From Ilumatobacteraceae bacterium (GTDB lineage Bacteria; Actinomycetota; Acidimicrobiia; Acidimicrobiales; Ilumatobacteraceae): DNA of 64,000 nt. Below the pieces are notes generated by a model. It did not search any database. It saw only the letters and a program-made list of their open reading frames with translations, and had not been told where the DNA came from. Location: NCBI GenBank assembly GCA_022843125.1, contig JALHOG010000025.1:1-64000 (forward strand), read 5' to 3'. Numbering within the stretch: position 1 is the stretch's first letter; each line of letters begins with the position of its first letter. This document shows positions 31,595-54,208 of this stretch, piece after piece. The translations under genes and the position numbers were made by a program.

Positions 31595-32476
31595 TCACAG
31601 TGCGAGCAATGATGGGGCGAGCGTGCGGAGTTCGACCATGGGGAAACCTGCCGACTCCGTGATCACCTGAATGCAGACGTGGTCGGCGCCCGCATCGAGA
31701 TGCTCCTCGACGCGAGCCGTGACGGCGTCGCGATCGCCCCACGCCACGAGATCGTCGATCAGACGATCGCTGCCGCCGTCTGCGACGTCGTCGTCGCCGT
31801 AGCCGAGCCACAGGAGCGCATTCGTGTAGTTGGCCTTGCTCAGGTAGAAGGGCGTGAACGACCGCGCGATCCGGCGAGCTGTGTCTGGGTCGTCCTCGAG
31901 CACGACCGTCACCTCGGTGGCGAGCAACTTGCCCTCACCCAGGATCTCGCGCGCCCGGCGCGTGTGCTCGACCGGCACGAAGTAGGGGTGGGCGCCCGAG
32001 GTCCGATCGCGGGCCAGGCCGAGCATCGCCGGGCGGAGCGCTGCGAGCAACCGGGTGGCTGGCACCTCGGGCTCGGTCGAGATGTTCGGCGTCGCATCCA
32101 TTCGATCGAGGTAGTCGCGCATCATCGAAATCGGCTTCGAGTAGTCGAACCCGTGGGCCGACACCTGCTCGGGATGACTCACGCCGAGACCGAGCACGAA
32201 TCGTCCCGGAAACGCATCGGCCAATGTGCGTTCACCGGTCGCCATCGTCATGGCGTCACGAGCCCACAGGTTGGCGATCCCGGTCGCCACGTTGACGTGG
32301 TCGGTCGCGGCGAGCACGATCGCCGCCGCGGCGAACGCGTCCTTCGCGATCAGCGGCTCCGGGTACCAGAACGTCCCGAAGCCGAGTTCTTCCAGCTCCG
32401 CAGCGGCTGCTCGCACGTCGGCGGCCGTCTCCGTGACGAACTGCGCCTGCCAACAACCGATGCGTCCGAGATCCAC
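31595..32476 (-). CDS. LLM-class (F420-type) oxidoreductase
   Basis: A luciferase-like TIM-barrel flavin/F420 oxidoreductase of 293 residues. It starts RIGCWQAQFVTETAADVRAA with EELGFGTFWYPE, followed by VNVATGIANLWARDAMTMA and GRFVLGLGVSHPEQV. These match the F420-dependent group often called the MSMEG_4141 family, in which the cofactor is thought to be deazaflavin F420; direct proof is lacking here. It lies 43 bp downstream of mftC on the same strand and is probably in the mft operon. Its link to mycofactocin is by position only. Confidence 0.88.
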   Translation of the reverse strand: MDLGRIGCWQAQFVTETAADVRAAAAELEELGFGTFWYPEPLIAKDAFAAAAIVLAATDHVNVATGIANLWARDAMTMATGERTLADAFPGRFVLGLGVSHPEQVSAHGFDYSKPISMMRDYLDRMDATPNISTEPEVPATRLLAALRPAMLGLARDRTSGAHPYFVPVEHTRRAREILGEGKLLATEVTVVLEDDPDTARRIARSFTPFYLSKANYTNALLWLGYGDDDVADGGSDRLIDDLVAWGDRDAVTARVEEHLDAGADHVCIQVITESAGFPMVELRTLAPSLLAL

Positions 32477-32519
32477 GAGTGCTCCTGTGTCGATGTGTGG
32501 GTCGGCGACGCCGACACGT

Positions 32520-33767
32520 TCAGCGCTCGGCCGGCGCGAAACCGGCGAGCGGATGCTCGGCGCACGCCGAGACGGGCGGGGCCGACCGGTCGACGAGGCG
32601 TCGGCTCAGGCTCACCATCACCGGCTCGTGGCGCGTCGGCGCGGACTTCGAATGGTCGATGCTCATCGGCGGGATCGTCCGCTCGCCAGCGAGCGCCAGT
32701 TCGCCGTAGCCCCGCACGCACTCCGGGTCCGGGCCGTCGAGCGGCAATCCGGTGAAGAACTTGGCCGCCATGCAGCCGCCCCGGCACGAGTCGTAGAAGT
32801 TGCACTGCTCGCACGCGCCGCCGCTCTGCGGAGCACGCAGATCTCGAAAGAGTTCCGAGGTCTGCCACACCTGCTGGAAGCCGCCGTCAGTGAGGAGGTT
32901 GCCGGCGAGGAACTCGGAGTGGATCGCGAACGGGCAGGCATACACGTCGCCGATCGGGTCGATCAGGCAGACCACCCTGCCGGCGCCGCACAGGTTCAGA
33001 CCGGGCAGTGCCTGGCCGAACGCGGCGAGGTGGAAGAACGAGTCGCCGGTGAGCACCCGATCACCGTGCGCTACCAACCAGTCGTACAGTGTCCGTTGCT
33101 GGTCGGGAAGGGGATGGAGTTCGTCCCACACGTTGATCCCCCGGCCCGAGGGGCGAAGTCGCGTCAGCCGCAGCGTGGCACCGTACTCGTCCGCCAGCGC
33201 CTTGAACTCGTCGAGCTGGTCGATGTTCTGCCGCGTGCAGACCACCGAGATCTTGCCGTCGCGGAACCCGGCAGTGCGAAGGTTCTCCAACGCCGTGATC
33301 GCCATGTCGAACGACCCCGGGCCGCGCACGTAGTCGTTCACGTCGGCCGTGGCCCCGTCCAGCGAGATCTGCACGTCGACGTACCCGCCGCATGCCGGCG
33401 ACGCGAGGAACGCGGCGCGCTCGGGGGTGAGGCGCGACCCGTTGGTGGAGAACTTCACACCCACCTGATGGTCGACGGCGTACTCCAACAGGTGCCAGAA
33501 GTCGGGTCGGATCGTCGGCTCGCCGCCGCCGATGTTCACGTAGAACACCTGCATCCGTTGCAGCTCGTCGATGATCGCCTCGCACTGCGTTGTCGTGAGT
33601 TCTCTCGGATCGCGCATCCCGCTACTCGAGAGGCAGTGGGCGCACTCGAGATTGCAGGCGTACGTGATCTCCCACGTCAGGCAGATCGGGGCGTCGAGGC
33701 CGCGCTCGAACTGCTGCACCAGCGACCCCGCCGACGGGCGTGCCGCTGTGTCCGTCCCGGCGGTCAT
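32520..33767 (-). CDS. mftC: mycofactocin radical SAM maturase MftC
   Basis: Radical SAM / SPASM enzyme that processes the C-terminal Val-Tyr of the MftA peptide (decarboxylation and crosslinking) in mycofactocin biosynthesis. The radical SAM CxxxCxxC cluster is CNLECAHC, followed by FYVNIGGGEPTIRPDF, VGVKFSTNGSRLTPE and DVQISLDGATADVNDYVRG. The SPASM region contains NLCGAGRVVCLIDPIGDVYACPF, CEQCNFYDSCRGGCMAAKF. The match to MftC is very close along its whole length. I chose ATG 33767, which overlaps the mftA stop by one base (TGATG); the longer frame to 33782 lies inside mftA. It is 415 residues, slightly longer than usual, with extra residues at the C-terminus. MftC normally needs the RRE protein MftB, which is not found beside it. 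Confidence 0.96.
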   Translation of the reverse strand: MTAGTDTAARPSAGSLVQQFERGLDAPICLTWEITYACNLECAHCLSSSGMRDPRELTTTQCEAIIDELQRMQVFYVNIGGGEPTIRPDFWHLLEYAVDHQVGVKFSTNGSRLTPERAAFLASPACGGYVDVQISLDGATADVNDYVRGPGSFDMAITALENLRTAGFRDGKISVVCTRQNIDQLDEFKALADEYGATLRLTRLRPSGRGINVWDELHPLPDQQRTLYDWLVAHGDRVLTGDSFFHLAAFGQALPGLNLCGAGRVVCLIDPIGDVYACPFAIHSEFLAGNLLTDGGFQQVWQTSELFRDLRAPQSGGACEQCNFYDSCRGGCMAAKFFTGLPLDGPDPECVRGYGELALAGERTIPPMSIDHSKSAPTRHEPVMVSLSRRLVDRSAPPVSACAEHPLAGFAPAER

Positions 33768-33913
33768 CAGTACACGCCGCACATACCGTCGATCGAGATC
33801 TCCTCGATCAGGAGTTCATCCAGCAGATCTTCGGCGCCAGCCTCGCTCGCCATGCTGTCCGTCACGCGGTCTGTCACGCGGTCATCGACGTCGTGGTTCG
33901 TGAGGCTGTGCAC
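33767..33913 (-). CDS. mftA: mycofactocin precursor peptide MftA
   Basis: A 48-residue precursor whose last eight residues are IDGMCGVY, the diagnostic MftA C-terminus; the Val-Tyr core is modified to make mycofactocin. The leader is acidic and Leu-rich (AEDLLDELLIEEISIDG), as expected. I chose the GTG at 33913, because AAGGAG lies 7 bp upstream; an internal ATG would give a 28-residue peptide. The stop overlaps the mftC start. It is the first gene of a minus-strand operon and is divergent from the NDMA-type alcohol dehydrogenase gene. Confidence 0.93.
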   Translation of the reverse strand: MHSLTNHDVDDRVTDRVTDSMASEAGAEDLLDELLIEEISIDGMCGVY

Positions 33914-33956
33914 CGTGGGGCTCCTTGCGTGGGCCACTCGAAGGGTGGGGAGCACC

Positions 33957-33989
33957 ACCCTCCCACTCGAATTGTCGATTGTCAACAGT
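33957..33989 (-). promoter_or_regulatory. mftA promoter with conserved 12-bp element
   Basis: On the minus strand ACTGTTGACAAT occupies 33989-33978. It contains a consensus -35 TTGACA; 17 bp later the hexamer GAGGGT keeps the A and T of a -10 (xAxxxT). The mftA GTG follows at 33913. An extra ATTGTC half-site lies at 33971-33976. The same 12-mer recurs at two other promoters of the island. Confidence 0.65.
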
Positions 33990-34043
33990 CATCTGCCTCG
34001 ATCATCTGGGGCGGTCACCGGGTCAGCGAACTGTCAATTGCTC

Positions 34044-34076
34044 ACTGTTGACAATCAGCAATCCAGGTTGGAGACT
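34044..34076 (+). promoter_or_regulatory. alcohol dehydrogenase promoter with conserved 12-bp element
   Basis: ACTGTTGACAAT at 34044-34055 gives -35 TTGACA (34048-34053), a 17-bp spacer and the hexamer GAGACT (34071-34076). A TGTCAA at 34033-34038 forms an inverted repeat with the TTGACA. The dehydrogenase ATG is at 34105. Confidence 0.65.
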
Positions 34077-34104: not shown

Positions 34105-35214
34105 ATGAAGACACGTGCCGCGGTGATGTGGCAGGAGACCGGCAAGTTCGAGATTGACGAACTCGAACTCGACGGCCCCAAAGACGGCGAGGTCCTCGTT
34201 CGATTCGACTACGCAGGGTTGTGCCACACCGACGAGCACCTCCGCAACGGCGACCTCGGCTTCACCCCGCCGATGGTCGGCGGCCACGAGGGCTCCGGCG
34301 TCGTCGAGGAAGTCGGCGCCGGCGTCACCCACATCCGCCCCGGCGACCACTTCGTCACGTCGTGGATGCCGTCGTGCGGCCGCTGCCGGTTCTGCGTCAC
34401 CGGCCAGACCAACCTCTGCGACAACGGCCAGTACCTGATGGCCGGCAAGATGCTCGACGGCACCCAGCGTCTCCACGGTCGCGGGTGCGGCGTCGGCTGC
34501 GTTGACCTGCTCGGCACGTTCTCGCAGTGGAACGTCATCCCTGCGGCGTGCGTGGTCGTGCTCGAACCCCACATCCCCCTCGACGCCGCGGCGATCACCG
34601 CCTGCGGCGTGCCGACCGGTTGGGGCTCGGCCGTGTACGCGGCCCGCACCCGCCCCGGCGACAACATCGTGATCTACGGCATCGGCGGCATCGGCATCAA
34701 CGCGGTGCAGGGTGCCGTGCACGCCGGCGCCGAACTCGTCGTCGCCATCGATCCGGTCGAGTTCAAGCGCGACATGGCACTGAAGCTCGGCGCCACCCAC
34801 GCCTTCGCCGACCCCGCCGAAGCCCACGAGTTCGTGTGGTCACACACCCGCGGCGTCGGCGCCGACGCCGCGATCATCACCGTCGGCCTCGTCGACAAGC
34901 AGGTCGTCAACGATGGCTTCGCCATGATCCGCAAGGGCGGCCGGTTGGTCGTCACGGCGGTGTCCAACCCCGACCTGCGCATCGAGATCCCGAGTTTCGA
35001 GCTCACGCTCTACCAGAAGGAGATCGTCGGCAGCCTCTTCGGGTCGGGCAACCCCCACTACGACATCCGCAACCTGATCAACCACTACATGAACGGCCGG
35101 TTGAAGCTCGACGAGCTCATCACCCGCCGCTACTCGCTCGACGACGTCAACAAGGGCTACGACGACATGCTCGACGGGATCAACATCCGCGGCCTGCTCG
35201 AGATCACCCACTGA
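34105..35214 (+). CDS. NDMA-type (mycofactocin-dependent) zinc alcohol dehydrogenase
   Basis: A 369-residue zinc-dependent medium-chain dehydrogenase. The catalytic zinc site is in YAGLCHTDEH and GGHEGSGVV; the structural zinc site is the four-Cys lobe CGRCRFCVTGQTNLC; the nucleotide site is GIGGIGINAVQG. The C-terminal GSGNPHYDIRNLINHY and LDGINIRGLLEITH are characteristic of the nicotinoprotein NDMA-dependent alcohol dehydrogenases, where NAD is not released and mycofactocin is the presumed electron acceptor. It is divergent from mftA, which fits that role. The start is ATG 34105 (MKTRAAVMW), the usual start in this family; ATG 34093 would add four residues. Substrate alcohol is unknown. 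Confidence 0.93.
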   Translation: MKTRAAVMWQETGKFEIDELELDGPKDGEVLVRFDYAGLCHTDEHLRNGDLGFTPPMVGGHEGSGVVEEVGAGVTHIRPGDHFVTSWMPSCGRCRFCVTGQTNLCDNGQYLMAGKMLDGTQRLHGRGCGVGCVDLLGTFSQWNVIPAACVVVLEPHIPLDAAAITACGVPTGWGSAVYAARTRPGDNIVIYGIGGIGINAVQGAVHAGAELVVAIDPVEFKRDMALKLGATHAFADPAEAHEFVWSHTRGVGADAAIITVGLVDKQVVNDGFAMIRKGGRLVVTAVSNPDLRIEIPSFELTLYQKEIVGSLFGSGNPHYDIRNLINHYMNGRLKLDELITRRYSLDDVNKGYDDMLDGINIRGLLEITH

Positions 35215-35242: not shown

Positions 35243-36151
35243 ATGACGAAATTCGACAACAAGTTCGACCGGTACCCGTTCTCCATCCTGCCGGATCGGC
35301 CGACGTACACCTGGCCGAACGGCACCACGCTGGCGGTGTACTTCGCCCTCAACGTGGAGGCCTTCGAGTTCGGTCGTAACCCCGGGCCCGACTTCACGTC
35401 GCTGCCCGCAGCACCGTTCCACCGTGGCTACGCGTACCGCGACTACGGCAACCGGGTGGGCATCTGGCGCATCCTCGAGCTCTTCGAGCGCTACGACATC
35501 CCACTCGCCATCCTCACCAACACCAGCGTCTACGACGTGTGCCCCGAGGTGCTCGTGCCGTTCCGTGAGCGGGGCGACGAGTTCGTCGGTCACGGCCGCA
35601 CCAACTCCGAGCGCCAGATCGACATGGAAGAAGACGTCGAGCGGGCCATGCTCGAAGAGGTCCGCGACCGATTCATCGCCGAGGAGGGCCACGCGCCCAA
35701 GGGCTGGCTCGGCCCCTTCATCTCGCAGAGCGCGAAGACACCCGAGCTGCTGCTCGAGTCCGGCTACAGCTACATGATGGACTGGTACTTCGACGAGCAG
35801 CCGCAGTGGTTCCGCACGGACAGCGGGCCGATCCTCAGCGTGCCATACCCGACGATGGAGCTCAACGACATCCCGGCGTTCATCAACCGCGGGTCGAGCG
35901 ATCCTGACTTCACCCGCATGGTCACCGACGGCTTCGACCAGCAACTCGCCGACGGTGAACGCCATGGCTGGCCGCTCGTGTGCGCCGTTTCGCTGCACAC
36001 CTTCCTGATGGGCCAACCGCACCGCGCCCACCAGCTGAACCTCATGCTCGAACACATGGCGGCGCACCGATCGCAGATCTGGTTCGCCACCCCGGGGCAG
36101 ATCGCCGACCACGTCGCAGGGCTCCCCGACGGCGTCGTCGCCAAACCCTGA
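35243..36151 (+). CDS. polysaccharide-deacetylase-family hydrolase (PuuE-like)
   Basis: A 302-residue member of the NodB/carbohydrate esterase 4 fold, closer to the PuuE-type (allantoinase-related) branch than to chitin deacetylases. The region YFALNVEAFEF replaces the usual TFDD metal strand, and EFVGHGRTNSERQIDME takes the place of the HxxxH motif. LGPFISQSAKTPELLLESGY and YMMDWYFDEQPQWF match the PuuE-like group. It probably acts on a C-N bond (ureido, amide or formyl group) and not on a polysaccharide; this is inference. It follows the alcohol dehydrogenase by 28 bp, so is likely cotranscribed. Confidence 0.85.
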   Translation: MTKFDNKFDRYPFSILPDRPTYTWPNGTTLAVYFALNVEAFEFGRNPGPDFTSLPAAPFHRGYAYRDYGNRVGIWRILELFERYDIPLAILTNTSVYDVCPEVLVPFRERGDEFVGHGRTNSERQIDMEEDVERAMLEEVRDRFIAEEGHAPKGWLGPFISQSAKTPELLLESGYSYMMDWYFDEQPQWFRTDSGPILSVPYPTMELNDIPAFINRGSSDPDFTRMVTDGFDQQLADGERHGWPLVCAVSLHTFLMGQPHRAHQLNLMLEHMAAHRSQIWFATPGQIADHVAGLPDGVVAKP

Positions 36152-36345: not shown

Positions 36346-36390
36346 GAGGAATACGAGATGAACGCCACCGGGCGAGATCAAGGGGAAGAC

Positions 36391-36723
36391 ATGTCGGAGA
36401 CGTTTCCAGCAGCCGATCGGAAAGTTGTCGTCGACTTCGGCGACGACGGGCCGTTCGGGCCGTTCGCAGCCGAGCTGACCTTCTCGGCCGCCGACAAGAC
36501 CGTGTCGTTCCTCGTGACACGCGGCTCGCTGCTCGGCAAGGCCGAGACGTGCCCGTTCGGCGCCACCCAGGTCGGCGACGACCTCTGGCTCGTGTCGTGG
36601 CGCGAGGAGGACGGACTCACCGTCGTGCAGGTGCAGGACTTCGCCCAGGGCAAGGTCACCTCGGCGGTCACCACACCCGACCACCAGCTCATCCAGCTCG
36701 ACGGCTCGATCACCCTCGTCTGA
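36391..36723 (+). CDS. MoaF-like small protein (calycin-type fold)
   Basis: A ~110-residue protein with alternating beta-strands (KVVVDFGDDGP, FAAELTFSAADKTVSFLV, AETCPFGATQVGDDLWLVSW, EEDGLTVVQVQDFAQGKVTS, LIQLDGSITLV). The pattern DLWLVSWxExDGxTVVxVQDF matches the MoaF-related / phenolic-acid-decarboxylase-like calycin domain. These proteins bind small molecules or catalyse simple lyase reactions. I chose ATG 36391, with AAGGGGA 5 bp upstream; the frame also permits ATG 36358, but that leaves almost no leader after the predicted promoter at 36313-36345. First gene of its transcript. Confidence 0.75.
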   Translation: MSETFPAADRKVVVDFGDDGPFGPFAAELTFSAADKTVSFLVTRGSLLGKAETCPFGATQVGDDLWLVSWREEDGLTVVQVQDFAQGKVTSAVTTPDHQLIQLDGSITLV

Positions 36724-36763: not shown

Positions 36764-37645
36764 GTGACGTCGTTCCGATCGACACTGCTCGCGGCCCACG
36801 CCGCCGGACGAGCCGTCGTCCTGCCCGGGGCGTACGACTCGCTCAGCGCCCGGCTCATCGAGCAGGTGGGCTTCTCGGCGCTCTACGCCACCGGCGCCGG
36901 CTTCGCGAACTCCAGCCTCGGTGTGCCCGACATCGGTCTGGTCACAGCCACCGAACTGCGCGACCACGTGGCCCGTCTCGCCGACGTCGTGTCGATCCCG
37001 ATCGTCGTCGACGCCGACACCGGATTCGGCAGCGCCATCAACATGTATCGCACGGTGCGCCTCCTGGAACGGGCGGGTGCGTCCGCAATCCAGATCGAGG
37101 ACCAGGTGTTCCCGAAGAAGTGCGGCCACTTCGCCGGCAAGGAAGTGATCTCCGCGCAGGAGATGGTGCAGAAGGTGCACGCCGCGGTCGACGCCCGACT
37201 CGATGACGACACCGTCATCATCGCCCGCACCGACGCCCGCGCCGTCACCTCGCTCGACGACGCGCTCGAGCGTGTCTCGCTGTACCGCGAGGCGGGTGCC
37301 GACGTGCTGTTCGTCGAGGCGCCCGAATCCGAGCAGGAGCTGAAGACGATCGGCGCCCACTTCGACGTCCCCCTCGTCGCCAACATGGTCGAGGGCGGCA
37401 AGACCCCGTTGCTGAGCGTCGACCAGCTCGCCGACGCCGGATTCTCGATGGTGCTGTTCGCGAACGCCGCTCTGCGCGTCGCCCAATACTCGATGACGGA
37501 GATGTTCCGCGAGTTGTCCCGCTCCGGGTCGACCAGCGCGCTGCTCGACCGGATGGCCACGTGGGACGAGCGCCAGTCGATCGTCGGCAAGCCGTTCTTC
37601 GACGCACTCGAACTGAAGTACTCGACGCAGGACGGAGCGTCATGA
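36764..37645 (+). CDS. isocitrate lyase / PEP mutase superfamily C-C lyase (methylisocitrate lyase-like)
   Basis: A 293-residue TIM-barrel enzyme. The metal site is VVDADTGFG, and the diagnostic catalytic loop is FPKKCGHFAG, whose KKCGH is the signature of C-C bond-cleaving members (isocitrate, 2-methylisocitrate and dimethylmalate lyases); phosphonomutases lack that Cys. Also seen are LPGAYDSLSARL, SAIQIEDQ and IIARTDARAV. It probably splits a 2-hydroxy or 3-hydroxy dicarboxylic acid to a ketoacid plus a smaller acid. The GTG start at 36764 has GGAGG 6 bp upstream. Its stop overlaps the next ATG, so the two are coupled. Two MmgE/PrpD proteins in the same island could supply its substrate. 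Confidence 0.9.
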   Translation: MTSFRSTLLAAHAAGRAVVLPGAYDSLSARLIEQVGFSALYATGAGFANSSLGVPDIGLVTATELRDHVARLADVVSIPIVVDADTGFGSAINMYRTVRLLERAGASAIQIEDQVFPKKCGHFAGKEVISAQEMVQKVHAAVDARLDDDTVIIARTDARAVTSLDDALERVSLYREAGADVLFVEAPESEQELKTIGAHFDVPLVANMVEGGKTPLLSVDQLADAGFSMVLFANAALRVAQYSMTEMFRELSRSGSTSALLDRMATWDERQSIVGKPFFDALELKYSTQDGAS

Positions 37646-38340
37646 CGAACGCAGCTCCTTGGGACGGCGTCATCTCCGACGACGACAAGCGCCGCTACGA
37701 ACTCGCCGGCTTCGGCCGACCGTCGGGTGTCGGCACACGCCCGGCGCTGCTGATCATCGACGTGCAGTACCGAACCCTCGGCGATTCGCCGAAGCCCTTC
37801 GACGAAGCGATCGAGGATTACACCACCGCCTGCGGCGACGTCGGCTGGAAGGCCCTCGAACAGATCACCCGGCTGCTCGCCCTGTTCCGACAGCACGACT
37901 TCCCCGTGCTCTACCCGCACGTGGCACCCAAGCGTCCCTACGACGCCGGCACCCTCGGCGCCAAGGTGCCCTCGATCATGGACGTCCCCGAGCAGGGGTA
38001 CCGGATCCCGCCGCAGATCGAGCCGGCCCCGCAGGACGTCATGCTGCCGAAGAAGCACCCGAGCGCGTTCTTCGGCACCCCGCTCGCCAGTCACCTCATC
38101 GACCTGCGGGCCGACACCCTCGTCGTCACCGGCTGCAGCACCAGCGGCTGCGTGCGCTCCACGGTCGTCGACGCGTTCGCCTACAACTTCAAGGTCCTCG
38201 TGCCGCATGACGCCGTGTACGACCGCAGCGAGACCGTGCACCAGGTGAACCTCTTCGACATGGGGCAGAAGTACGCGGACGTCGTCTCCACCGACGACGC
38301 CCTCGCCGTGATCGACGGCCTCGGCACGGGGCGAGGCTGA
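37642..38340 (+). CDS. isochorismatase-family amidohydrolase
   Basis: A 232-residue cysteine hydrolase of the isochorismatase-like / N-carbamoylsarcosine amidase group. The catalytic triad is visible: Asp in LLIIDVQYRT, Lys in LPKKHPSAFFGT, and Cys in TGCSTSGCVRSTVVDAF, which is the CSHase-type nucleophile motif. An amide or carbamoyl group is the likely target; maleamate and carbamoylsarcosine are precedents. The ATG at 37642 overlaps the preceding stop (ATGA). With the deacetylase-family hydrolase at 35243, it hints that the island's substrate contains nitrogen; this is inference. Confidence 0.9.
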   Translation: MTNAAPWDGVISDDDKRRYELAGFGRPSGVGTRPALLIIDVQYRTLGDSPKPFDEAIEDYTTACGDVGWKALEQITRLLALFRQHDFPVLYPHVAPKRPYDAGTLGAKVPSIMDVPEQGYRIPPQIEPAPQDVMLPKKHPSAFFGTPLASHLIDLRADTLVVTGCSTSGCVRSTVVDAFAYNFKVLVPHDAVYDRSETVHQVNLFDMGQKYADVVSTDDALAVIDGLGTGRG

Positions 38341-38341: not shown

Positions 38342-38710
38342 ATGTACGCCGTCAACTGGAACGACGTCCCCGAGACCGAGAACCTGCCCAACAACTTCCG
38401 CGTGGCGGTCGCCGGCAAGGAGATGGGCATCAACCGCATCCGCTGGGTGCACCCCACCAGGCTGCCCGCCCACTCGCATGACGACGCCGAACAGGCCGTC
38501 ATCGTGATCGAAGGGTCCATCCGCTTCAACATCGGCGACGAGCAACTCACCCTCGGCGTCGGCGACGTCGCGGTGATCCCACGCACCGTCGTGCACTCAG
38601 GCGAGAGCATCGAGGGCACCGCCGTGTTCGTCGAGATCTTCGCGCCGCTGCGACTCGAGAACCTGTACGGCTTCCTCGGCAACAGCGCCGTCGCTCCAGG
38701 AGAGGACTGA
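38342..38710 (+). CDS. cupin-domain protein
   Basis: A single-domain cupin of 122 residues, starting one base after the previous stop. The metal-binding motifs are PAHSHDDAEQAVIVIEGSI (H-x-H and Glu) and, in the second half, VAVIPRTVVHSGESIEG with the third His. The fold is a small beta-barrel that binds a metal; family members are isomerases, dioxygenases, lyases or sensors. Which one cannot be told here. It is in the middle of the catabolic operon. Confidence 0.88.
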   Translation: MYAVNWNDVPETENLPNNFRVAVAGKEMGINRIRWVHPTRLPAHSHDDAEQAVIVIEGSIRFNIGDEQLTLGVGDVAVIPRTVVHSGESIEGTAVFVEIFAPLRLENLYGFLGNSAVAPGED

Positions 38711-46908: not shown

Positions 46909-47994
46909 ATGAGCCTCTTCGACCCGTGGACCCTGGGGCGGATCACCCTCGCCAACCGGGTCGTGATGGCACCGATGACCCGCAACCGCGCCGCCGACGA
47001 CGGTGTCCTGCCGTCGTATGTGGCCGAGTACTACGGCCAACGCGCCGGAGCGGGCCTCATCGTCACCGAAGGCACCCAGCCGAGTGAAGGTGCCCGCGGG
47101 TACGCCGGCACCCCCGGCCTCCACAACGACGAGCAGCAGGCCGCCTGGGCGGAGGTGGCCGACGCGGTGCACGCCGGTGGCGGCAGCGTCTTCTGCCAGC
47201 TGATGCACACCGGCCGGATCGGTCACTCGTCGCTGCTCCCCGCACCGTGGGACCTCGTCGCCCCGAGTGCCGTCACCGCCGACGTCGCCGTCACCGACGC
47301 ATCGGGGCGTGAGGTCCCCGCTGAAACGCCGAGGGCGCTCGAGACCGACGAGATCCACGACATCGTCGAGGTGTACGCGCGGTCGGCCGAGCGCGCAGTC
47401 GAAGCCGGCCTGGACGGCGTCGAGTTGCACGGCGCCAACGGCTATCTCCCACACCAGTTCCTCTCCAGCGGGACCAACCTGCGCGAGGACGACTATGGCG
47501 GTTCGCCCGAGAAGCGCGCTCGCTTCGTCGTCGAGGTGTTGACCGCGATGGCGCAACGGATCGGTTCCGACCGTGTCGGGCTCCGTCTGTCGCCCGGTGG
47601 GAAGTTCAACGACATGCAGGGCCTCGACGACGACGAGACCTATCTCGCGCTCCTCGACGGACTCGACGGCCTCGGCCTCGCCTATCTGCATGTGTTGCGT
47701 CGGCGATCGACCCCGCTGCACGAGGAGCTGCGCCGACGCTGGAACACGACGTTCATCCTCAACACCGGCTACTTCGGTTCCTCCGACTTCGAGGAACTCG
47801 ATGCGATCGTCGCCGCCGGAGAAGCGGACCTCGTGAGCGTCGGCCGATGGTTCATCTCGAACCCCGACCTCGTCGAGCGCTGGAGGCAGGGCGTGGCCCT
47901 GTCGCCGTGGAACGAGGACACCTTCTACACACCGGGCCCTGTCGGCCTCACCGACTACCCGGCTGCCACCGGTCCCACCGCGGCGATCAGTTGA
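46909..47994 (+). CDS. NADH:flavin oxidoreductase / Old Yellow Enzyme family
   Basis: A 361-residue FMN enzyme of the Old Yellow Enzyme family. Motifs: TLGRITLANRVVMAPMTRNR at the N-terminus, VTEGTQPSEGARGYAGTPG, QLMHTGRIGHSS (FMN and substrate site), and HGANGYLPHQFLSSGTNLRE with DDYGGSPEKRARF, which is diagnostic. LVSVGRWFISNPDL lies near the end. It reduces activated C=C bonds of enones, nitroalkenes or related compounds. The start ATG 46909 follows the regulator stop by 4 bp. No 4Fe-4S or second domain is present, so it is not a trimethylamine-dehydrogenase-type enzyme. Confidence 0.93.
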   Translation: MSLFDPWTLGRITLANRVVMAPMTRNRAADDGVLPSYVAEYYGQRAGAGLIVTEGTQPSEGARGYAGTPGLHNDEQQAAWAEVADAVHAGGGSVFCQLMHTGRIGHSSLLPAPWDLVAPSAVTADVAVTDASGREVPAETPRALETDEIHDIVEVYARSAERAVEAGLDGVELHGANGYLPHQFLSSGTNLREDDYGGSPEKRARFVVEVLTAMAQRIGSDRVGLRLSPGGKFNDMQGLDDDETYLALLDGLDGLGLAYLHVLRRRSTPLHEELRRRWNTTFILNTGYFGSSDFEELDAIVAAGEADLVSVGRWFISNPDLVERWRQGVALSPWNEDTFYTPGPVGLTDYPAATGPTAAIS

Positions 47995-48031: not shown

Positions 48032-48760
48032 ATGACAGAGCACGAAGGACGCATCGTCGTCGTCACCGGCGCAGGCTCCGGCATCGGTGCCGCCTGCTGC
48101 GAGCTGTTCGGTTCCGCCGGCGCCACCGTGATCGGCTGGGATCTGCGCCCGAGCGACGAGTCGAGCACTGCGGTCGACGTCGGCGACTGGGATGCCGTCA
48201 GCGCTGCGGCGGACGTGCTCGCCGACCTTCACGGCCGCGTCGACGTGCTCGTGAACTGCGCCGGTGTCATCACGCCGAACCTGTCGGCCGAAGACGTGGA
48301 TCCGCAGGACTACCGCCGCAACTTCGACGTGAACGTGATGGGAATCGTGCACGCCACCAAGGCACTGCACCGGCTGCTGGTCGCCTCCGACTCTGCGGCG
48401 ATCGTCAACGTGGCCAGCCAGGCAGCGCTCGTGTCGCTCCCATGCCAGACCGCCTACTCGGCGTCGAAGGGTGCGGTGGCCGCACTCACCCGTGCGCTTG
48501 CGATCGACTGGGCTGCACAGGGCATCCGCGTCAACGCCGTGTGCCCGGGCTTCACCGCCACCCCGATGGCGATGGGGCAGATGACCCCCGAGCTCGACGC
48601 TGCCGTGTCGCGCCGGGTGCCGCTCGGTCGTATCTTCCAACCAGCCGAGATCGCCGAGGCGATCGCCTTCCTGGGAAGCCGCCGGGCCTCGGCGATCACC
48701 GGCGTCGTCCTCCCGGTCGACGGTGGCTGGACCGCCGGCGAACCCGCGCTCCCGATGTGA
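48032..48760 (+). CDS. SDR-family oxidoreductase
   Basis: A classical short-chain dehydrogenase of 242 residues. Cofactor site TGAGSGIGAACC, the LVNCAGV strand, the catalytic Ser in IVNVASQAAL, and the YSASKGA Tyr/Lys motif are all intact. The segment VNAVCPGFTATPM and the final VDGGWTAG are standard. It lacks the GxxRGQGR motif of mycofactocin-coupled SDRs, so it probably uses free NAD(P). Likely oxidises a hydroxy group in the island's pathway. Confidence 0.93.
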   Translation: MTEHEGRIVVVTGAGSGIGAACCELFGSAGATVIGWDLRPSDESSTAVDVGDWDAVSAAADVLADLHGRVDVLVNCAGVITPNLSAEDVDPQDYRRNFDVNVMGIVHATKALHRLLVASDSAAIVNVASQAALVSLPCQTAYSASKGAVAALTRALAIDWAAQGIRVNAVCPGFTATPMAMGQMTPELDAAVSRRVPLGRIFQPAEIAEAIAFLGSRRASAITGVVLPVDGGWTAGEPALPM

Positions 48761-48829: not shown

Positions 48830-49588
48830 ATGACATTCCAGGGAAAGATCGCTTACGTGACAGGCGCGAGTTCGGGGATCGGCCGTGGCGCGGCGATTCG
48901 GCTCGCGAACGACGGGGCTGCGGTCGTGCTGATCGGTCGTCGCCGGAGGCATCTCGACGAGGTCGCCGAGCTCTGTGGTGAGCACGCGGCTGTGCTCGAA
49001 CTCGACGTGGCCGACGGCGCCGCGGTCGCCGAGGTCCTGCCGAACGCCCTGGCCGAACACGGACCACCCGACATCGTGGTCCACGCCGCCGGCATCACCG
49101 TCCTCGGCGCACTCGATGCCCTCAGTGAGGACGAGTGGGACCGGCAGATGGACACCAACGTCAAGAGCATCTTCCACTTGAACCGGGTGCTGTGGCCAGC
49201 GATGCAACCGACCGGTGGTGCGATCGTGATCGTGGCGTCGACCGCGAGCTTTGCCGCGTTCCCGCAGGACGCCGCCTACGTCGCGTCCAAGGGCGCTGTG
49301 CTGGCGTTGACCAAGGCGATGGCGCTCGACGGCGCCCCGCACGGGATCCGCGTCAACGCGGTGTGCCCCGGCTTCATCCTCACCCCGAACCTCCAGGGCT
49401 ACTTCGACGGTCAGCCGGACCCTGCTGCGGCGGTCCGAGGCGCCGCGGAGGCCGCACCGCTCGCCCGACTCGGGACGCCCGAGGACGTCGCCGGTGCCGT
49501 GGCGTTCCTCGCCGGCGACGACGCGGCCTTCATCACCGGCACGTCGGTGCTGATCGACGGCGGGCTGCTCGCACGCGTCCCGACCTGA
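48830..49588 (+). CDS. SDR-family oxidoreductase
   Basis: A second classical SDR of 252 residues, paralogous to the previous one. Features: TGASSGIGRGAAIR, IVVHAAGITVLGALDAL, the catalytic Ser in VIVASTASFAAFPQ, YVASKGA and VNAVCPGFILTPNLQ, ending in IDGGLLARV. It also has the free-NAD(P) type of glycine motif. A 69-bp gap precedes it. The two SDRs may interconvert different oxidation states of the same intermediate. Confidence 0.93.
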   Translation: MTFQGKIAYVTGASSGIGRGAAIRLANDGAAVVLIGRRRRHLDEVAELCGEHAAVLELDVADGAAVAEVLPNALAEHGPPDIVVHAAGITVLGALDALSEDEWDRQMDTNVKSIFHLNRVLWPAMQPTGGAIVIVASTASFAAFPQDAAYVASKGAVLALTKAMALDGAPHGIRVNAVCPGFILTPNLQGYFDGQPDPAAAVRGAAEAAPLARLGTPEDVAGAVAFLAGDDAAFITGTSVLIDGGLLARVPT

Positions 49589-49677: not shown

Positions 49678-51063
49678 ATGAACGAACACCCAACGGACAA
49701 CGGTGCCGATCGTGACGTCGATGTGATCGTCGTCGGCGCAGGCGCCGGCGGGCTGACCGCTGCGCTCGCCGTCGCGGACGCCGGACGCTCCGTGGTCGTG
49801 CTCGAGAAGCTCGACCGCGCGGGCGGCAACTCGGCGCTCTCGACCGGCTCCATCCCGGCTGCCGGTTCCCGCCAACAGCGTGACGCCGGCGTCGACGACG
49901 ACGCCGAGCGGATGATCGCGGACCTGCTGCAGCAGAGCGGCGCCCACGAAGCCGAACACCTGACACGTCGGCTCGCCGAGATCTCCGCCGAACTCGTCGA
50001 CTGGCTCGTCGAGCAGCACGGCGTCGGCCTGCGGCTCATCACCGACTACAAGCACGTCGGCCACTCGGTCACCCGGCTCCACGCCCCGGTCTCCCGGCGC
50101 GGCGCCGACCTCGTCGACGACCTGCTCGCCGCGTGCGAACGCGCCGGCGTCGACGTGCTCGTCGGCAATCCGGTGACCGCACTGATCACCGATGACCAGT
50201 GCGTGCGCGGCGTCGTGGTCGAAGGCGAACGCCTCGCCCGGTACGAGTTGCGCGCCGACGCCGTGATCCTCGCGAGCAACGGCTTCGGCAACAGCCCGGC
50301 CCTGCTCCGCCAGTGGGTTCCCGAGATCTCCGATCTCGAGTACTTCGGCGCCCGGGGGTCCACCGGCGAGGCGCTGCAGTGGGGGCTCGAACTCGGCGGC
50401 TACCTCCAGAACCAGCACGCCTACCAGGGCTACGCCGCCGTGGCGTACCCGCACGGATCGATCCTGTCGTGGACCACCGTCGAGAAGGGGGCGATCCTGG
50501 TCGACGCGTCCGGTCGTCGTCTCGGCGACGAGTCGATCGGCTACTCCGGGTTCACCGCCGACGTGCTGCGCGGCGAAGGTCCCGTGCACGTCGTGTACGA
50601 CAGCCGCATCAAGGCCCACGCCATGCGCGAAGAAGAGTTCGCCGAACTCGACGACATGGGCGGCGCGCGCGAGTTCGACGACGTCGAGACGCTGGCCGAG
50701 GCGATCGGTGTCGACGCGGCGGCGCTCGGTGCGACGCTCGCCGAGTACGGCGACGCTGCCGCCGGCCGGATTCCCGACCCGTTCGGCCGACACGACTTCG
50801 GGCTCGCCCCACTCCAACCGCCGTACGCCGCGTCCCGCGTCAGCCCCGGGTTGTTCCACACCCAGGGCGGGCTCGCCATCGACGCCGACGGCCGGGTGCT
50901 CACCGCATCCGGCGCGGCGGTGCCCGGGCTCTTCGCCGTCGGTGGTGTCGCCGCCGGCATCAGCGGCCAGCAGGGGGGCAAGGGATACTCGTCGGGCAAC
51001 GGGCTCCTCACCGCCGTCGGCCTCGGCCGGCTCGCCGGACTCGCCGCGATCGGGCCGCGATGA
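49678..51063 (+). CDS. FAD flavoprotein of the fumarate reductase / KstD family
   Basis: A 461-residue member of the FAD-binding domain 2 family (fumarate reductase / succinate dehydrogenase flavoprotein, 3-ketosteroid dehydrogenase). The N-terminal Rossmann motif is VVGAGAGGLTAALAVADAG, with VVLEKLDRAGGNSALSTG; later come VILASNGFGNSPALLR, LFHTQGGLAIDADGRV and the FAD loop GGKGYSSGNGLLTAVGLG. There is no heme or Fe-S domain. It probably dehydrogenates a CH-CH bond alpha,beta to a carbonyl, or reduces the double bond. Its stop overlaps the next ATG, so it is coupled to the first PrpD gene. Confidence 0.9.
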   Translation: MNEHPTDNGADRDVDVIVVGAGAGGLTAALAVADAGRSVVVLEKLDRAGGNSALSTGSIPAAGSRQQRDAGVDDDAERMIADLLQQSGAHEAEHLTRRLAEISAELVDWLVEQHGVGLRLITDYKHVGHSVTRLHAPVSRRGADLVDDLLAACERAGVDVLVGNPVTALITDDQCVRGVVVEGERLARYELRADAVILASNGFGNSPALLRQWVPEISDLEYFGARGSTGEALQWGLELGGYLQNQHAYQGYAAVAYPHGSILSWTTVEKGAILVDASGRRLGDESIGYSGFTADVLRGEGPVHVVYDSRIKAHAMREEEFAELDDMGGAREFDDVETLAEAIGVDAAALGATLAEYGDAAAGRIPDPFGRHDFGLAPLQPPYAASRVSPGLFHTQGGLAIDADGRVLTASGAAVPGLFAVGGVAAGISGQQGGKGYSSGNGLLTAVGLGRLAGLAAIGPR

Positions 51064-52427
51064 CCGTCGACGCCGCCTGGACGGCCTGGCACGACGACCT
51101 CTTCGCCCGTGTCGCCACCCTCGGAAGCGGCGCACTCGACGCGGCCACCCGCCGACGCGCCGCGCTCGTCGCCGTCGACGACCTCGCCGCGATGGTCGCC
51201 GCGGTCGACGAACCCCAGGTCACGGCCCTGTCCGCGTCGGCCGCGCGCAGCGCACCGATCCCGGAGGCGAGCCTGGTCGGCGGTGGACGGGTCGGTCGCG
51301 GGTGGGCTGCGCTCGTCAACGGCACGGCCGCGTGCTGGCACGAACTCGACGAGGGATATCGGCCCACCCCGTGCCACGGCGGGCTGTACTCGCTGCCCGC
51401 CGCGATGGCCGAGGTGGAGGCCAACGGCGACGACGTGGGCACGCTCCTGCGGGCGCTCGTGGCCGGGTACGAGGTGTCGACGGCGTACGCCCGGGCGATG
51501 CCCCAACCCCGACCGCTGGTGCTCCACCCCCACGCCACCCTCGCGCCCGTCGGCGCGGCCGCGGCCATCGCGACCGCCCGGGGCATCAGCGGCGCCGATG
51601 TCGCCGCCGCCGTGCACGTGGCCGTCACCCTGGCGGCGGTCGGACCCTTCTCGCACGCCACCTCAGGCGTCCTCGTGCGCAACGGCTGGGCCGGACACGG
51701 TGCGATGAGCGGGTTCACCGCGGTCGAGCTGGCGGCTGCCGGCGTGGCGGGACACGAGGGCGGACCGGTCGAGGTGCTGCACCACACACTCGGCAACGGG
51801 TTCTCGACCGACGAACTCCAACGGCGCACCGATCGCTGGGCGATCCACGACGGCTACCACAAGCTCTATGCGTGCTGTCAGTACATCCACAGCGCGGTCG
51901 AAGCCGCCTTGGAACTGTCGGCCGGGCCGCTCGCATCCGTGCGCTCCGAGGACGTCGCCCGCATCGTGGTGGAGACTCACCCGCTCGCACGGGCGCTCGA
52001 CGACGTGTCGCCGAGTACGGTCCTCGGCGGCCAGTTCTCCCTCCCACACGCCGTCGCCGCCGTGCTCGTGTCCGGCTCCGCGGCGTCGAGCACGTTCGGG
52101 CCGGCGGGCCTCGACGACGAGGCCGTCGCCGCCGTGCGCTCGGTCGTCGAGCTCGAGCCCTATCCGGGCGACCTCGTCGCCCCGCACGACCGGCCGGCGC
52201 GCATCGGTGTGACGCTGCGGTCGGGTGAGCAGTTCGTCGCCGAGTGTCCGAGCGCGATCGGTGGTCCCGACCGACCGCTCACCGAAGCCGACGTGTTGGA
52301 GAAGGTGGCACGCATGACCGCCGGTCGAGCTCCGCGGTTCGCTGCGGTGGCCGAAGCGCTCGTCGACGGCGCCGTTGACGACACCGCCGACTGGCGTGAG
52401 GTGCTCGAGGAGCTGTGGAGCCGATGA
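51060..52427 (+). CDS. MmgE/PrpD family protein (first copy)
   Basis: A 455-residue MmgE/PrpD family protein; relatives include 2-methylcitrate dehydratase, cis-aconitate decarboxylase and iminodisuccinate epimerase. Two-domain pattern: LVNGTAACWHELDEGY, ALVAGYEVSTAYARA, HPHATLAPVGAAAAIA, the long helical part with DGYHKLYACCQYIHSAVEA (the conserved K-x-Y-x-x-C-x-x-x-H region), and a C-terminal lid (GVTLRSGEQFVAECPSAIGG). It is coupled by ATGA to the flavoprotein before it and by ATGA (52424) to the second copy. The two may act on the same or successive intermediates. Confidence 0.9.
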   Translation: MTVDAAWTAWHDDLFARVATLGSGALDAATRRRAALVAVDDLAAMVAAVDEPQVTALSASAARSAPIPEASLVGGGRVGRGWAALVNGTAACWHELDEGYRPTPCHGGLYSLPAAMAEVEANGDDVGTLLRALVAGYEVSTAYARAMPQPRPLVLHPHATLAPVGAAAAIATARGISGADVAAAVHVAVTLAAVGPFSHATSGVLVRNGWAGHGAMSGFTAVELAAAGVAGHEGGPVEVLHHTLGNGFSTDELQRRTDRWAIHDGYHKLYACCQYIHSAVEAALELSAGPLASVRSEDVARIVVETHPLARALDDVSPSTVLGGQFSLPHAVAAVLVSGSAASSTFGPAGLDDEAVAAVRSVVELEPYPGDLVAPHDRPARIGVTLRSGEQFVAECPSAIGGPDRPLTEADVLEKVARMTAGRAPRFAAVAEALVDGAVDDTADWREVLEELWSR

Positions 52428-54208
52428 CCGACGGCACGGACGGGCTCGTCGACGGCGTGCTGCGCGCCGTCGGGCAGGTCCCCGACCACGTCGCCCGTTC
52501 GGCGCGGCTCCACCTGCTCGACGCGTTCGGCGTGGCGATGGCGGCCGCCGCGGCCGGACCGGTCCAGGGCGTCGTGATGCTCGCCGACGACACCCCCGGA
52601 CCCAGCACGGTGCTCGGAACGGGACGCACGACGTCGCCCGCGGTGGCCGCGCTCGTCAACGGCACGCTGATGCACTCGCTGGAATACGACGACACGCACG
52701 TGACCTCCGTGGTGCACGGCAGCAGCGTCCTCGCCGCAGCCGCACTGGCGGTTGCCGAGGAGGTCGGTGCGACCGGACGTGAACTCGTCGACGCCTTCGC
52801 AGTCGGCTGGGAGCTGCTGATCCGCATCGGACTCGCCAGCCCCGGTCGGCTGCAGGCGAACGGTTTCCAGGTGACGGCCGCCGGCGGGGCGTTCGCGGCG
52901 GCCGCCGTGTCCGCGCTGTTGCACGGCGACGATCCGGCGACGCTCGCCGACGCGATCGGCATCGCCGGATCCCAGGCCGGGGGAACGTTCGCGTTCCTGG
53001 CGGGGGGCGACACCGTCAAGGCCGTGCAACCCGGCTGGGCGGCGCACGCCGGCGTGATGGCCGAACAGCTCGCACGCGCCGGGGTCACCGGCCCGCGACA
53101 CGTGTTCGACGGACCCTTCGGCTTCTATCGTCTGTACGCCCACGACCCGGACGCCGCCGACCGGCTGCTCGTGTCCTGTGCGGACCTCGGCACGGTGTGG
53201 CACCTGCCCGACGCGGCGTTCAAGCTACTCCCGTGCTGCCACTACCTGCACCCGTTCGTCGAGGCGATGCACGAGGTGCTCGACGACGGAGTCGACGCCG
53301 CAGACGTCGTGGCCGTGCACTGCGAGGTGCCGAGCGAGGTGGTGGCGATCATCGCCGAGCCGTGGCCCGACCGCCAGCATCCCCGGACCGCGCAGGACGC
53401 GAGATGGAGCCTTCCCTACGTGCTCGGACTCGTGCTGTGCCACGGGCGGGTCGATGCGGCAGCGTTCGTCGGTGACGTCGACGAACTCGTCGTCGAGACG
53501 GCGCGGACGGTGCAGTACACCCCGTGGGAGGGGAGTGGCTTCCCGGCGCGGTTCCCGGCCCGCGTCCGGGTGCGGCTCCGCGATGGCAGCGAACGCACCG
53601 CCGAGGTGCTGGACGTGCTCGGCAGTGCCGGACGGCCGGTCGGCGACGAGGCCGTACTCGCCAAGGCGCGGAACAACCTGTGCGCCGGCGGGCTGTCGCC
53701 CGCCGAGGCCGAGGACGTCGTCGCAGCCCTCCTCGCCGACGACATCGATCTCGCCCGGCTGGTGGTCGTGCTCGGATCTCGCGGCAGCGACTCCCCTCCG
53801 ACGGACGGCGTGGTCATGACACGGCGGGGCGTGGCCGCCTCCGGTGGCGAGTCCGATCGAGCGGCCTACTCGGCGGCCATCCGGGTCGGCGACCTCGTCT
53901 TCGTGTCGGGTCAGGTCGCGATGAGCGACGACGGCGAACCGCTCGCAGTCGGCGACTTCCATGCACAGGCCGAGGTGGCATTCGGTCGGCTCCGCGACGT
54001 GCTGGTCGCCGCCGGGTCCGGCCTCGAGCACGTCGCCAAGGTCACGATCCACCTCACCGACCGGGCAAACGTGAGCGCGCTCGTCGACCTGCGCCGCCGG
54101 TGGTTCAGTGAGCCGTTCCCCGCCGACACCACCGTTGTCGTCGCCTCCCTCGCACGTCCGGAGTGGTTGATCGAGATCGACGCCGTGGCGGTGCTGCCGC
54201 ACGCATGA
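52424..54208 (+). CDS. MmgE/PrpD protein fused to a Rid (YjgF/RidA) domain
   Basis: A 594-residue fusion. Residues ~1-460 are MmgE/PrpD: LVNGTLMHSLEYDDTHVTSV, ALAVAEEVGATGRELVDAF, GGTFAFLAGGDTVKAVQPG and FKLLPCCHYLHPFVEAMH. Residues ~465-594 form a complete Rid-family domain: AYSAAIRVGDLVFVSGQVAM, QAEVAFGRLRDVLVAAGSGL, KVTIHLTDRANVSAL and WLIEIDAVAVLPHA. No stop separates them. An in-frame ATG at 53816 could also start a free Rid protein. The position of the catalytic Arg of RidA (P-A-R-S) reads PADTT here, so ordinary imine deaminase activity is doubtful. Last gene of the plus-strand run. Confidence 0.9.
   Translation: MTDGTDGLVDGVLRAVGQVPDHVARSARLHLLDAFGVAMAAAAAGPVQGVVMLADDTPGPSTVLGTGRTTSPAVAALVNGTLMHSLEYDDTHVTSVVHGSSVLAAAALAVAEEVGATGRELVDAFAVGWELLIRIGLASPGRLQANGFQVTAAGGAFAAAAVSALLHGDDPATLADAIGIAGSQAGGTFAFLAGGDTVKAVQPGWAAHAGVMAEQLARAGVTGPRHVFDGPFGFYRLYAHDPDAADRLLVSCADLGTVWHLPDAAFKLLPCCHYLHPFVEAMHEVLDDGVDAADVVAVHCEVPSEVVAIIAEPWPDRQHPRTAQDARWSLPYVLGLVLCHGRVDAAAFVGDVDELVVETARTVQYTPWEGSGFPARFPARVRVRLRDGSERTAEVLDVLGSAGRPVGDEAVLAKARNNLCAGGLSPAEAEDVVAALLADDIDLARLVVVLGSRGSDSPPTDGVVMTRRGVAASGGESDRAAYSAAIRVGDLVFVSGQVAMSDDGEPLAVGDFHAQAEVAFGRLRDVLVAAGSGLEHVAKVTIHLTDRANVSALVDLRRRWFSEPFPADTTVVVASLARPEWLIEIDAVAVLPHA

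Follow-up and report, generated by a model that had tools for sequence, protein, structure and literature searches.

Organisation of the locus

The DNA analysed here, which we call the window, comprises positions 1 to 64,000 of contig JALHOG010000025.1 from an Ilumatobacteraceae bacterium (assembly GCA_022843125.1), and this report concerns a 22.6-kb block within it (31595-54208) whose 22 genes (g23-g44) include a mycofactocin gene pair and a long series of putative catabolic genes. Genes were called with custom-made callers and assigned to families through Pfam and NCBIfam (TIGR) profile searches and sequence matches in the PDB. The plus strand carries 19 called genes (g26-g44) between 34105 and 54208; the gap is 50 bases or less at 14 of their 18 junctions, and five junctions are 4-base overlaps. 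Three minus-strand genes at 31595-33955 (mftA, mftC and the gene of an F420-type LLM oxidoreductase) diverge from this series. A first-pass annotation had described about 20 packed genes on one strand, divergent from mftA-mftC, and both this layout and its list of families (MftA and MftC, two NDMA-type alcohol dehydrogenases, an aldehyde dehydrogenase, an importer, a lyase, an isochorismatase, an Old Yellow Enzyme (OYE), SDRs, a flavoprotein and PrpD proteins) agree with our gene calls and profile searches. Left out of that list were the LLM oxidoreductase, the MoaF-like protein, the cupin, the metallo-beta-lactamase-fold protein, the GntR/FCD regulator and the RidA fusion. The whole block looks like one catabolic unit. 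Its features are as follows:

31595..54208, strand not applicable: almost certainly a genomic island inserted after recG (recG then nth, with no g23-g44 match, in 6/6 congeners; L167-L172)
31595..32476, minus: g23, F420-type LLM oxidoreductase, TIGR03620 subfamily (329 bits, cut-off 220)
32520..33767, minus: g24, MftC, mycofactocin radical SAM maturase, the genome's second copy (TIGR03962 634 bits, cut-off 265; tree)
33767..33955, minus: g25, MftA precursor ending IDGMCGVY, its true start possibly inside the frame (TIGR03969 47 bits, cut-off 25)
34105..35214, plus: g26, NDMA-type alcohol dehydrogenase, absent from orthologous operons, with an 84% homologue in contig L007 (TIGR03989 502 bits, cut-off 440)
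35243..36151, plus: g27, PuuE-like, proposed ring-opening cyclic-amide hydrolase replacing the dihydropyrimidinase-like gene of orthologous operons (PDB 3cl6 E 1.5e-25, 3qbu E 1e-7; gene contexts; HxnM precedent)
36358..36723, plus: g28, MoaF-like small protein, adjoining the lyase in L007 too (PF22036 83 bits)
36764..37645, plus: g29, isocitrate-lyase/PEP-mutase family C-C lyase (family profiles; KKCGH loop, NMVEGGKTP motif)
37642..38340, plus: g30, isochorismatase-family cysteine amidohydrolase, proposed second C-N hydrolase (PF00857 99 bits; PDB matches)
38342..38710, plus: g31, cupin (profile match; 57-59% in orthologous operons)
38715..39578, plus: g32, metallo-beta-lactamase-fold hydrolase, conserved in the operon (PF00753)
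39661..40932, plus: g33, solute-binding protein, ribose-type family (PF13407, Peripla_BP_4)
40947..42509, plus: g34, ABC importer ATPase (PF00005)
42506..43603, plus: g35, ABC importer permease (PF02653, BPD_transp_2)
43600..44715, plus: g36, NDMA-type alcohol dehydrogenase, the operon's conserved one (TIGR03989 476 bits, cut-off 440; 71-75% in orthologous operons)
44742..46217, plus: g37, aldehyde dehydrogenase (PF00171 620 bits)
46227..46904, plus: g38, GntR/FCD regulator (profile match; in orthologous operons)
46909..47994, plus: g39, OYE, ene-reductase (PF00724 259 bits; top NCBIfam match N-ethylmaleimide reductase, 329 bits, cut-off 403)
48032..48760, plus: g40, SDR oxidoreductase (profile match; in orthologous operons)
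48830..49588, plus: g41, SDR oxidoreductase (profile match; in orthologous operons)
49678..51063, plus: g42, fumarate-reductase-family flavoprotein (FAD_binding_2) without the usual carboxylate-binding residues (profile match; residue comparison)
51060..52427, plus: g43, MmgE/PrpD protein, proposed hydratase (PF03972, PF19305)
52424..54208, plus: g44, MmgE/PrpD protein fused to a RidA domain, with shorter orthologues lacking RidA (PF03972, PF19305, PF01042)

An acquired island after recG

In all six congeners compared (G001, G009, G008, G002, G006 and G004) recG, which is 83-85% identical to that of the window, is followed by nth (g46 in the window), with zero to two genes between them (g45-like or one unassigned) and no match to any of g23-g44. 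Because this interval holds no island gene in the congeners, we conclude that 31595-54208 was in all probability inserted after recG, and that the block is with near certainty a horizontally acquired genomic island; the borders drawn in the first-pass annotation coincide with those of the block missing in 6/6 congeners. Among 61 genomes (the organism's own and 60 relatives) the top match to g30 outside the window is 40% identical.

The island borders have no word of 10 or more bases in common, direct or inverted. The longest word common to both is 9 bases; 412 of 494 stretch pairs drawn at random from the window have a common word of at least this length, so the borders have no repeat in common beyond what chance would give, and there are no repeats within either border stretch. 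No tRNA was found in the window, no integrase family was matched among the island proteins in family searches (genes far outside being mostly not annotated), no Rfam family reached its gathering score in 27000-57000 and no sigma-70-type promoter was found in 31400-50000. The gene adjoining the island, g45 (54270-55367), has no family match. Its relatives make this a variable spot (L167, L168, L171, L172): the recG-nth interval holds two of them in G009 and in G006 and one in G004, in G001 they lie past nth, and none is present at the recG-nth region in G008 and G002.

A conserved operon and its partial relatives

Most of the plus-strand series recurs elsewhere. In a phylum sample of 396 evenly drawn genomes, g30 has a match of more than 50% identity in just two others, G109 (61%) and Rubrobacter marinus (G290; 54%), and a search of 301 genomes of G109's family with flavoprotein g42 returned six genomes with at least 61% identity. 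All 16 genes g29-g44 are found together in G548, G446, G518 and G109, which belong to another family of the same phylum. In G548 and G446 the order is g38, g29, a dihydropyrimidinase-like gene, g30-g37 and g39-g44, i.e. the window order with the regulator moved, and G648 is collinear with these two as far as g42, where its contig ends. In G518 and G109 the 16 genes are rearranged and MFS-type transporters have been added, and G667 has a reduced set (g38, g29, a ring hydrolase, g30 and g42). Identity of the orthologous operons to the window is approximately 45-75%, excepting the regulator (36-39%) and the ring hydrolase. Two irregularities concern gene calls: our gene caller splits g36 in G548, and in the G109 match to g35 the similarity search counts two stops where the gene caller finds an open frame of 346 residues. 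Because the whole set recurs in other genomes, the 16 window genes appear to travel together, and we regard it as near certain that g29-g44 is a conserved 16-gene operon. A search for the same gene set in other genomes had been suggested by the first-pass annotation, and its recovery in four of them speaks against a set of unrelated transcripts.

The remaining window genes, namely g26, g27, g28, the mft pair and the LLM gene, have no match in the orthologous operons. For g27 in particular there is none in the stretches read of G548, G446, G518, G109 and G648, and in 5/5 of these the dihydropyrimidinase-like gene adjoins the lyase. A 4.7-kb contig (L007) carries homologues of g26 (84%), g28 (66%) and g29 (74%), followed by a dihydropyrimidinase-like gene. 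Both NDMA-type alcohol dehydrogenases of the first-pass annotation score above cut-off, and only g36 is conserved in the orthologous operons. Orthologues of g44 in G548, G446, G109, G518 and Rubrobacter are 446-472 residues long, too short for a RidA domain.

Parts of the operon also occur separately. Rubrobacter marinus and plasmid pMNOD02 of Methylobacterium nodulans have lower genes only (lyase, ring hydrolase, isochorismatase, flavoprotein and two PrpD, together with cupin and lactamase-fold genes in the former), adjoined by an importer of MHS or Liv type. Matches to the lyase, isochorismatase and flavoprotein fall within about 8 kb on two more Methylobacterium plasmids (seen as search matches), and a Variovorax plasmid has lower genes with no lyase nearby. 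Conversely, on a Rhodococcus plasmid an importer forms a cassette with an aldehyde dehydrogenase and an NDMA-type dehydrogenase that is 58% identical to g36, and the lower genes are absent. From this gene content we infer two tiers, an upper one (g33-g37, g39-g41) for import and oxidation of an alcohol-bearing form and a lower one for ring opening and cleavage. The same distribution could be taken to mean that several small units with no relation to each other (polyol oxidation, methylcitrate-like and amide) were gathered on the island beside a spare mft pair, since both the lower part and the importer/dehydrogenase cassette can stand alone. We think this quite improbable. It is opposed by the presence of the 16 genes together in four other genomes in two arrangements, and by G387, where a lyase, LeuC, LeuD, HyuA and HyuB are accompanied by a homologous importer (permease 56%, ATPase 45%); this linkage ties importer and ring chemistry together independently.

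Two further observations relate to these gene sets. In Rubrobacter marinus (L021/L118) the lower module is followed by genes that, judged by eye, resemble those of an asparaginase, an FAD flavoprotein (the second one), an ornithine cyclodeaminase, an amidase in two pieces and a third PrpD. A second, paralogous cluster in family f57 (L156-L161) has a flavoprotein about 40% identical to g42, most often accompanied by a dihydropyrimidinase-like gene, a Liv-type importer, PrpD, a CaiB-type gene and a 210-residue protein (one tested; no Pfam or NCBIfam match); the best g42 match is at this level of about 40% in 29 of the 301 genomes.

Lyase, hydratase and the company they keep

The first-pass annotation had called g29 a methylisocitrate-lyase-type enzyme, an assignment that we do not retain. 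Its score against TIGR02317 (PrpB, methylisocitrate lyase) is 308 bits, below the cut-off of 354, and its motifs are VEAP and NMVEGGKTP, as in the petal death protein (1zlp), where PrpB has NITEFGATP. The lyases of the independently found operons in G548, G446, G109, G518 and G667 have EGG in 5/5. We reject a role for g29 in the methylcitrate cycle (PrpB, PrpD) on account of the sub-cut-off PrpB score and the different motif; that cycle shares with the window the superfamilies of g29 and g43/g44, but no citrate-synthase-type gene was matched in the island, and C-N hydrolases are among its genes.

To define the partners of such lyases we gathered 80 lyase loci by peptide patterns including ANMVEGGK, so that the frequency of the NMVEGGKTP-type motif among them is biased; dropping L044, in which no lyase gene was called, left 79. 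Partner families were recorded within 9 kb, 51 of the 79 loci being at least 17 kb long and 28 shorter. The genes most often found next to g29-like lyases encode LeuCD-type hydratases. An isochorismatase is present in 26 of the 51 long loci, and a cyclic-amide hydrolase accompanies it in 26/26: HyuAB in 13, a PuuE-like enzyme in 7, a dihydropyrimidinase-like one in 5 and all three in 1. A hydratase is found in 25 of these 26 (LeuC only in 22, LeuC plus PrpD in 2, PrpD only in 1). Among the 25 long loci without isochorismatase, a ring hydrolase occurs in 3. Over all 79 loci, 33 have an isochorismatase, 32 of these a ring hydrolase and 28 of the 32 also a hydratase. Related loci inflate these counts; in a thinned set of 21 lyases below 65% identity, a ring hydrolase is present in 10/10 loci with isochorismatase vs 2/11 without (p = 2e-4), and a hydratase in 9 of the 10.

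Three unrelated hydrolase families thus alternate at ring opening, and LeuCD and PrpD types do so at hydration. The pattern is best explained by a cyclic imide, because two hydrolyses of it would give a diacid that a hydratase and a malate-type lyase can finish. The PrpD proteins g43/g44 more likely hydrate than dehydrate here. Of the logic outlined in the first-pass annotation, import, alcohol oxidation, C-N hydrolysis and C-C cleavage fit.

Putative ring hydrolase g27 and amidohydrolase g30

Having no Pfam match, and scoring 120 bits against TIGR03212 (PuuE allantoinase; cut-off 425), g27 can be placed in a fold family only. Its PDB matches are PuuE itself (3cl6) and 3qbu; parts of PMC9304392 give 3qbu as the nearest structure of the fungal cyclic imidase HxnM, which is 64% identical to a Pseudomonas putida cyclic imide hydrolase. 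The same source, as far as consulted, states the relation that puts the cyclic imide hydrolase of P. putida YZ-26, PuuE allantoinase and hence g27 in one fold family. Strong g27 matches exist in five other phylum-sample genomes, with a g30-like isochorismatase within 5 kb in three of them (G290, G001 and G021). Plasmid matches number 74 records, and six contexts from among 20 of them were examined; an amidase, carbamoyl hydrolase or ring-opening amidohydrolase is near in 5/6, one of these five having a molybdenum hydroxylase as well. Given this company of C-N hydrolases, polysaccharide deacetylation by g27 is not supported, and in place of the 'deacetylase' of the first-pass annotation a hydrolase of cyclic amides (imides or ureides) is the likelier reading. 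Ring opening followed by a second amidase seems likely, the proposed second enzyme being g30, whose PDB matches include 3ot4/3uao (E 6e-27).

We put the chance that the imide reading is right at about even, and several observations weigh against it: (i) the pairing found in the window, PuuE-like enzyme plus PrpD, is seen in no other isochorismatase-bearing lyase locus; (ii) in G667 the group of lyase, ring hydrolase, isochorismatase and flavoprotein lacks an adjoining PrpD (a LeuC/LeuD pair stands with a second lyase about 8 kb further on); (iii) lyase motifs vary, being ANITEFGQTP in L164, VNMSETGLTP in G387 and ANIVFGGKTP in L162; (iv) the context of a PuuE-like gene on a Bosea plasmid, whose gene table is incomplete, shows no C-N hydrolase (1/6); (v) the top PDB match of g30 is N-carbamoylsarcosine amidohydrolase (E 3e-33); (vi) each of the dihydropyrimidinase-like, PuuE-like and HyuAB families has members that cleave hydantoin or allantoin; and (vii) in G168 a related importer, with no lyase, adjoins HyuAB and an amidase of the hydantoinase/carbamoylase family (379 bits, cut-off 204).

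The last three points favour hydantoin-like ureides, the main rival chiefly because of the G168 importer context. If the substrate were a cyclic ureide (hydantoin, or a reduced or unsaturated pyrimidine), g27 would act as a hydantoinase or allantoinase and g30 as an N-carbamoyl amidohydrolase, with PrpD and lyase processing the carbon skeleton and the RidA domain of g44 clearing the resulting enamine or imine. RidA-type clearing of this kind belongs to the Rut pathway for uracil. Each of the three families of ring hydrolase matches a model for allantoinase, dihydropyrimidinase or hydantoinase, and on a Sulfitobacter plasmid the PuuE-like homologue stands with an N-carbamoyl-D-amino-acid hydrolase and a dihydropyrimidinase. 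We nevertheless consider the ureide unlikely: double hydrolysis would give an amino acid, with no obvious use for an aconitase-family or PrpD-type hydratase and a malate-type lyase, yet a hydratase is present in 25/26 long loci with isochorismatase; and the RidA fusion is peculiar to the window, the orthologues read being without it.

A possible substrate for flavoprotein g42

Flavocytochrome c3 is the closest relative of g42. The catalytic Arg and His are kept in g42, and the equivalents of His365, Glu378 and Arg544 are not, according to the fumarate reductase numbering and roles (carboxylate binding, catalysis) that we take to apply to the aligned positions. Among flavoproteins from different variants, 30/30 keep the catalytic Arg and His and have FHTQGG and GYxxGNG in common, and in 30/30 GYxxGNG occupies the position of fumarate reductase's carboxylate-binding Arg. 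A free dicarboxylate as the substrate of g42 is disfavoured by this active-site comparison. Because the carboxylate-binding residues are missing, an uncharged ring would be a better guess than succinate or fumarate.

Vitamin B6 breakdown was considered because of the two alcohol dehydrogenases, the SDR and the metallo-beta-lactamase fold, and was rejected. Among the PDB matches listed for g32 (60 of 66) there is no B6-pathway lactonase, and no pyridine-ring oxygenase was matched among the island proteins.

Importer, dehydrogenases and the mycofactocin pair

Matches of g33 to solved structures are weak and ribose-type only, and indicate no ligand; OYE g39 has no plasmid matches at E 1e-80. Both g26 and g36 (502 and 476 bits) pass the TIGR03989 cut-off of 440 in a genome that bears MftC, and excerpts of PMC3023750 place NDMA-type dehydrogenases near mft clusters. 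The window is like such systems in having mftA, mftC and two above-cut-off dehydrogenases. It differs in that a second mftA-mftC pair, without mftB, lies with the dehydrogenases inside a catabolic island.

The pair had been noted in the first-pass annotation as linked and divergent, which is correct, with the amendment that it is a second copy lacking mftB. The genome has one other MftC, in an mftA-mftB-mftC locus on another contig (C6) whose MftB scores 103 bits against TIGR03967 (cut-off 33); in the window, the motif RPE.F[GA]AL of MftB was found in none of the six frames. Five congeners searched have one MftC each, and MftC was found in 13/13 genomes of that search, Rubrobacter giving a partial match only. 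In the class sample 66 of 296 genomes have MftC, with two copies in just this genome and G966. An MftB motif stands beside the second mftC of G966 (L185, L186), so that the window's extra pair is the only one known without mftB.

An MftC tree of 25 sequences, a small sample from which G648 was left out, unites the island copy with five other-family carriers of the full or reduced operon in a clade of six (support 99/98), to which the MftC of the genome's other locus does not belong. Most simply, the island would have brought mftA-mftC along from an operon-carrying donor of this kind. In G446 and G109 the single mftC is far from the operon or on another contig, and because of this the mft pair probably joined the operon at some point.

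A proposed pathway

Comparison among genomes establishes the island, the conserved operon, the distinct second mftA-mftC and the exchange of enzymes at the ring-opening and hydration steps; on this foundation the reactions and the substrate can be proposed. A plausible scenario, to which we would give an even chance, is that the operon on the island serves the breakdown of a cyclic imide that bears an alcohol group, or of a cyclic amide closely related to it. The ribose-type ABC importer (g33-35) would take the compound up, and its alcohol group would be converted to an acid by g36, an alcohol dehydrogenase predicted to depend on mycofactocin, and the aldehyde dehydrogenase g37, with the island's mftA-mftC presumably supplying mycofactocin jointly with the MftB of the other locus and with later enzymes. 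OYE g39, SDRs g40/g41 and flavoprotein g42 might then adjust double bonds and carbonyls on the closed, uncharged ring, which the PuuE-like hydrolase g27 would open. Isochorismatase g30 would remove the remaining amide nitrogen to leave an unsaturated diacid, the PrpD pair g43/g44 would add water, and lyase g29 would cleave the hydroxy-diacid to a 2-oxo acid such as pyruvate and a smaller carboxylic acid.

We found no pathway with this gene set among the matches listed in the open PMC literature, in line with the first-pass annotation, which knew of no described one. There is partial precedent in Eubacterium barkeri, whose nicotinate fermentation, like the scheme above, uses a hydratase followed by a lyase of g29's superfamily. 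These are dimethylmaleate hydratase and 2,3-dimethylmalate lyase, the latter yielding pyruvate and propionate. The two routes differ in that the window uses PrpD, not LeuCD, and that neither a coenzyme B12 mutase nor an enamidase was matched among the window genes.

Further precedent comes from the hxn nicotinate pathway of Aspergillus nidulans, in which, according to the portions of PMC9304392 consulted, an OYE alkene reductase, an SDR, a PuuE-related cyclic imidase and then an amidase act in that order. The window groups OYE, SDR, cyclic-amide hydrolase and amidase in what looks like one conserved unit (g39-g41, g27 or its dihydropyrimidinase-like counterpart in the orthologous operons, and g30). 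Because these four activities are sequential in the fungus, the window may by analogy work like the fungal route in that part, without being a member of it. The hxn pathway, as these excerpts have it, begins with ring hydroxylation and ends at 2-hydroxyglutarate, unlike the window, and the excerpts mention neither an NDMA-type dehydrogenase nor a PrpD or C-C lyase for it; the amidase of the fungus belongs to PF01425 and not to the isochorismatases (PMC8478523, in part).

The fungal order of steps also raises the idea that a pyridine-type N-heterocycle is the starting compound, with a six-membered imide as an intermediate only. Two Variovorax plasmids offer a context that would suit this idea, in that isochorismatases 54-56% identical to g30 stand there next to a molybdenum hydroxylase and a flavin monooxygenase. 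We find it very doubtful, given that the 22 island genes gave no match to a molybdenum hydroxylase or an aromatic flavin monooxygenase and that the fungal nicotinate route involves neither a ribose-type importer nor an alcohol dehydrogenase. The Variovorax clusters themselves (L165, L166; the monooxygenase is FAD-dependent) suggest N-heterocycle breakdown.

Within the cyclic-imide scheme a more specific candidate, improbable in our estimate, is that the operon degrades 3,4-disubstituted maleimides, i.e. the stable fragments that remain after breakdown of chlorophyll, haem and bilins, such as methylethylmaleimide or side-chain-hydroxylated forms. The OYE or the flavoprotein would reduce or oxidise the ring double bond, imidase and half-amidase would give a dialkylmaleate, PrpD or LeuCD would hydrate it, and the lyase would release pyruvate and a short fatty acid. 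Lower modules related to that of the island occur in Clostridiales, Thermoplasmata, Rhodobacteraceae, Methylobacterium and Rubrobacter. If the maleimide proposal were true, such modules would form a widespread and so far unrecognised sink for the carbon and nitrogen of tetrapyrroles.

Implications

The analysis turns a list of enzyme families into a testable pathway whose core, a ring-opening amide hydrolase, a second amidase, a hydratase and a lyase, recurs in bacteria and archaea. Enzyme exchange at two of its steps suggests that the substrate is common and useful, and Methylobacterium nodulans ORS 2060 and Rubrobacter marinus are carriers in which it could be found. The occurrence of mycofactocin precursor and maturase genes in an acquired island, together with dehydrogenases predicted to need the cofactor, bears on how cofactor-dependent catabolism may spread.

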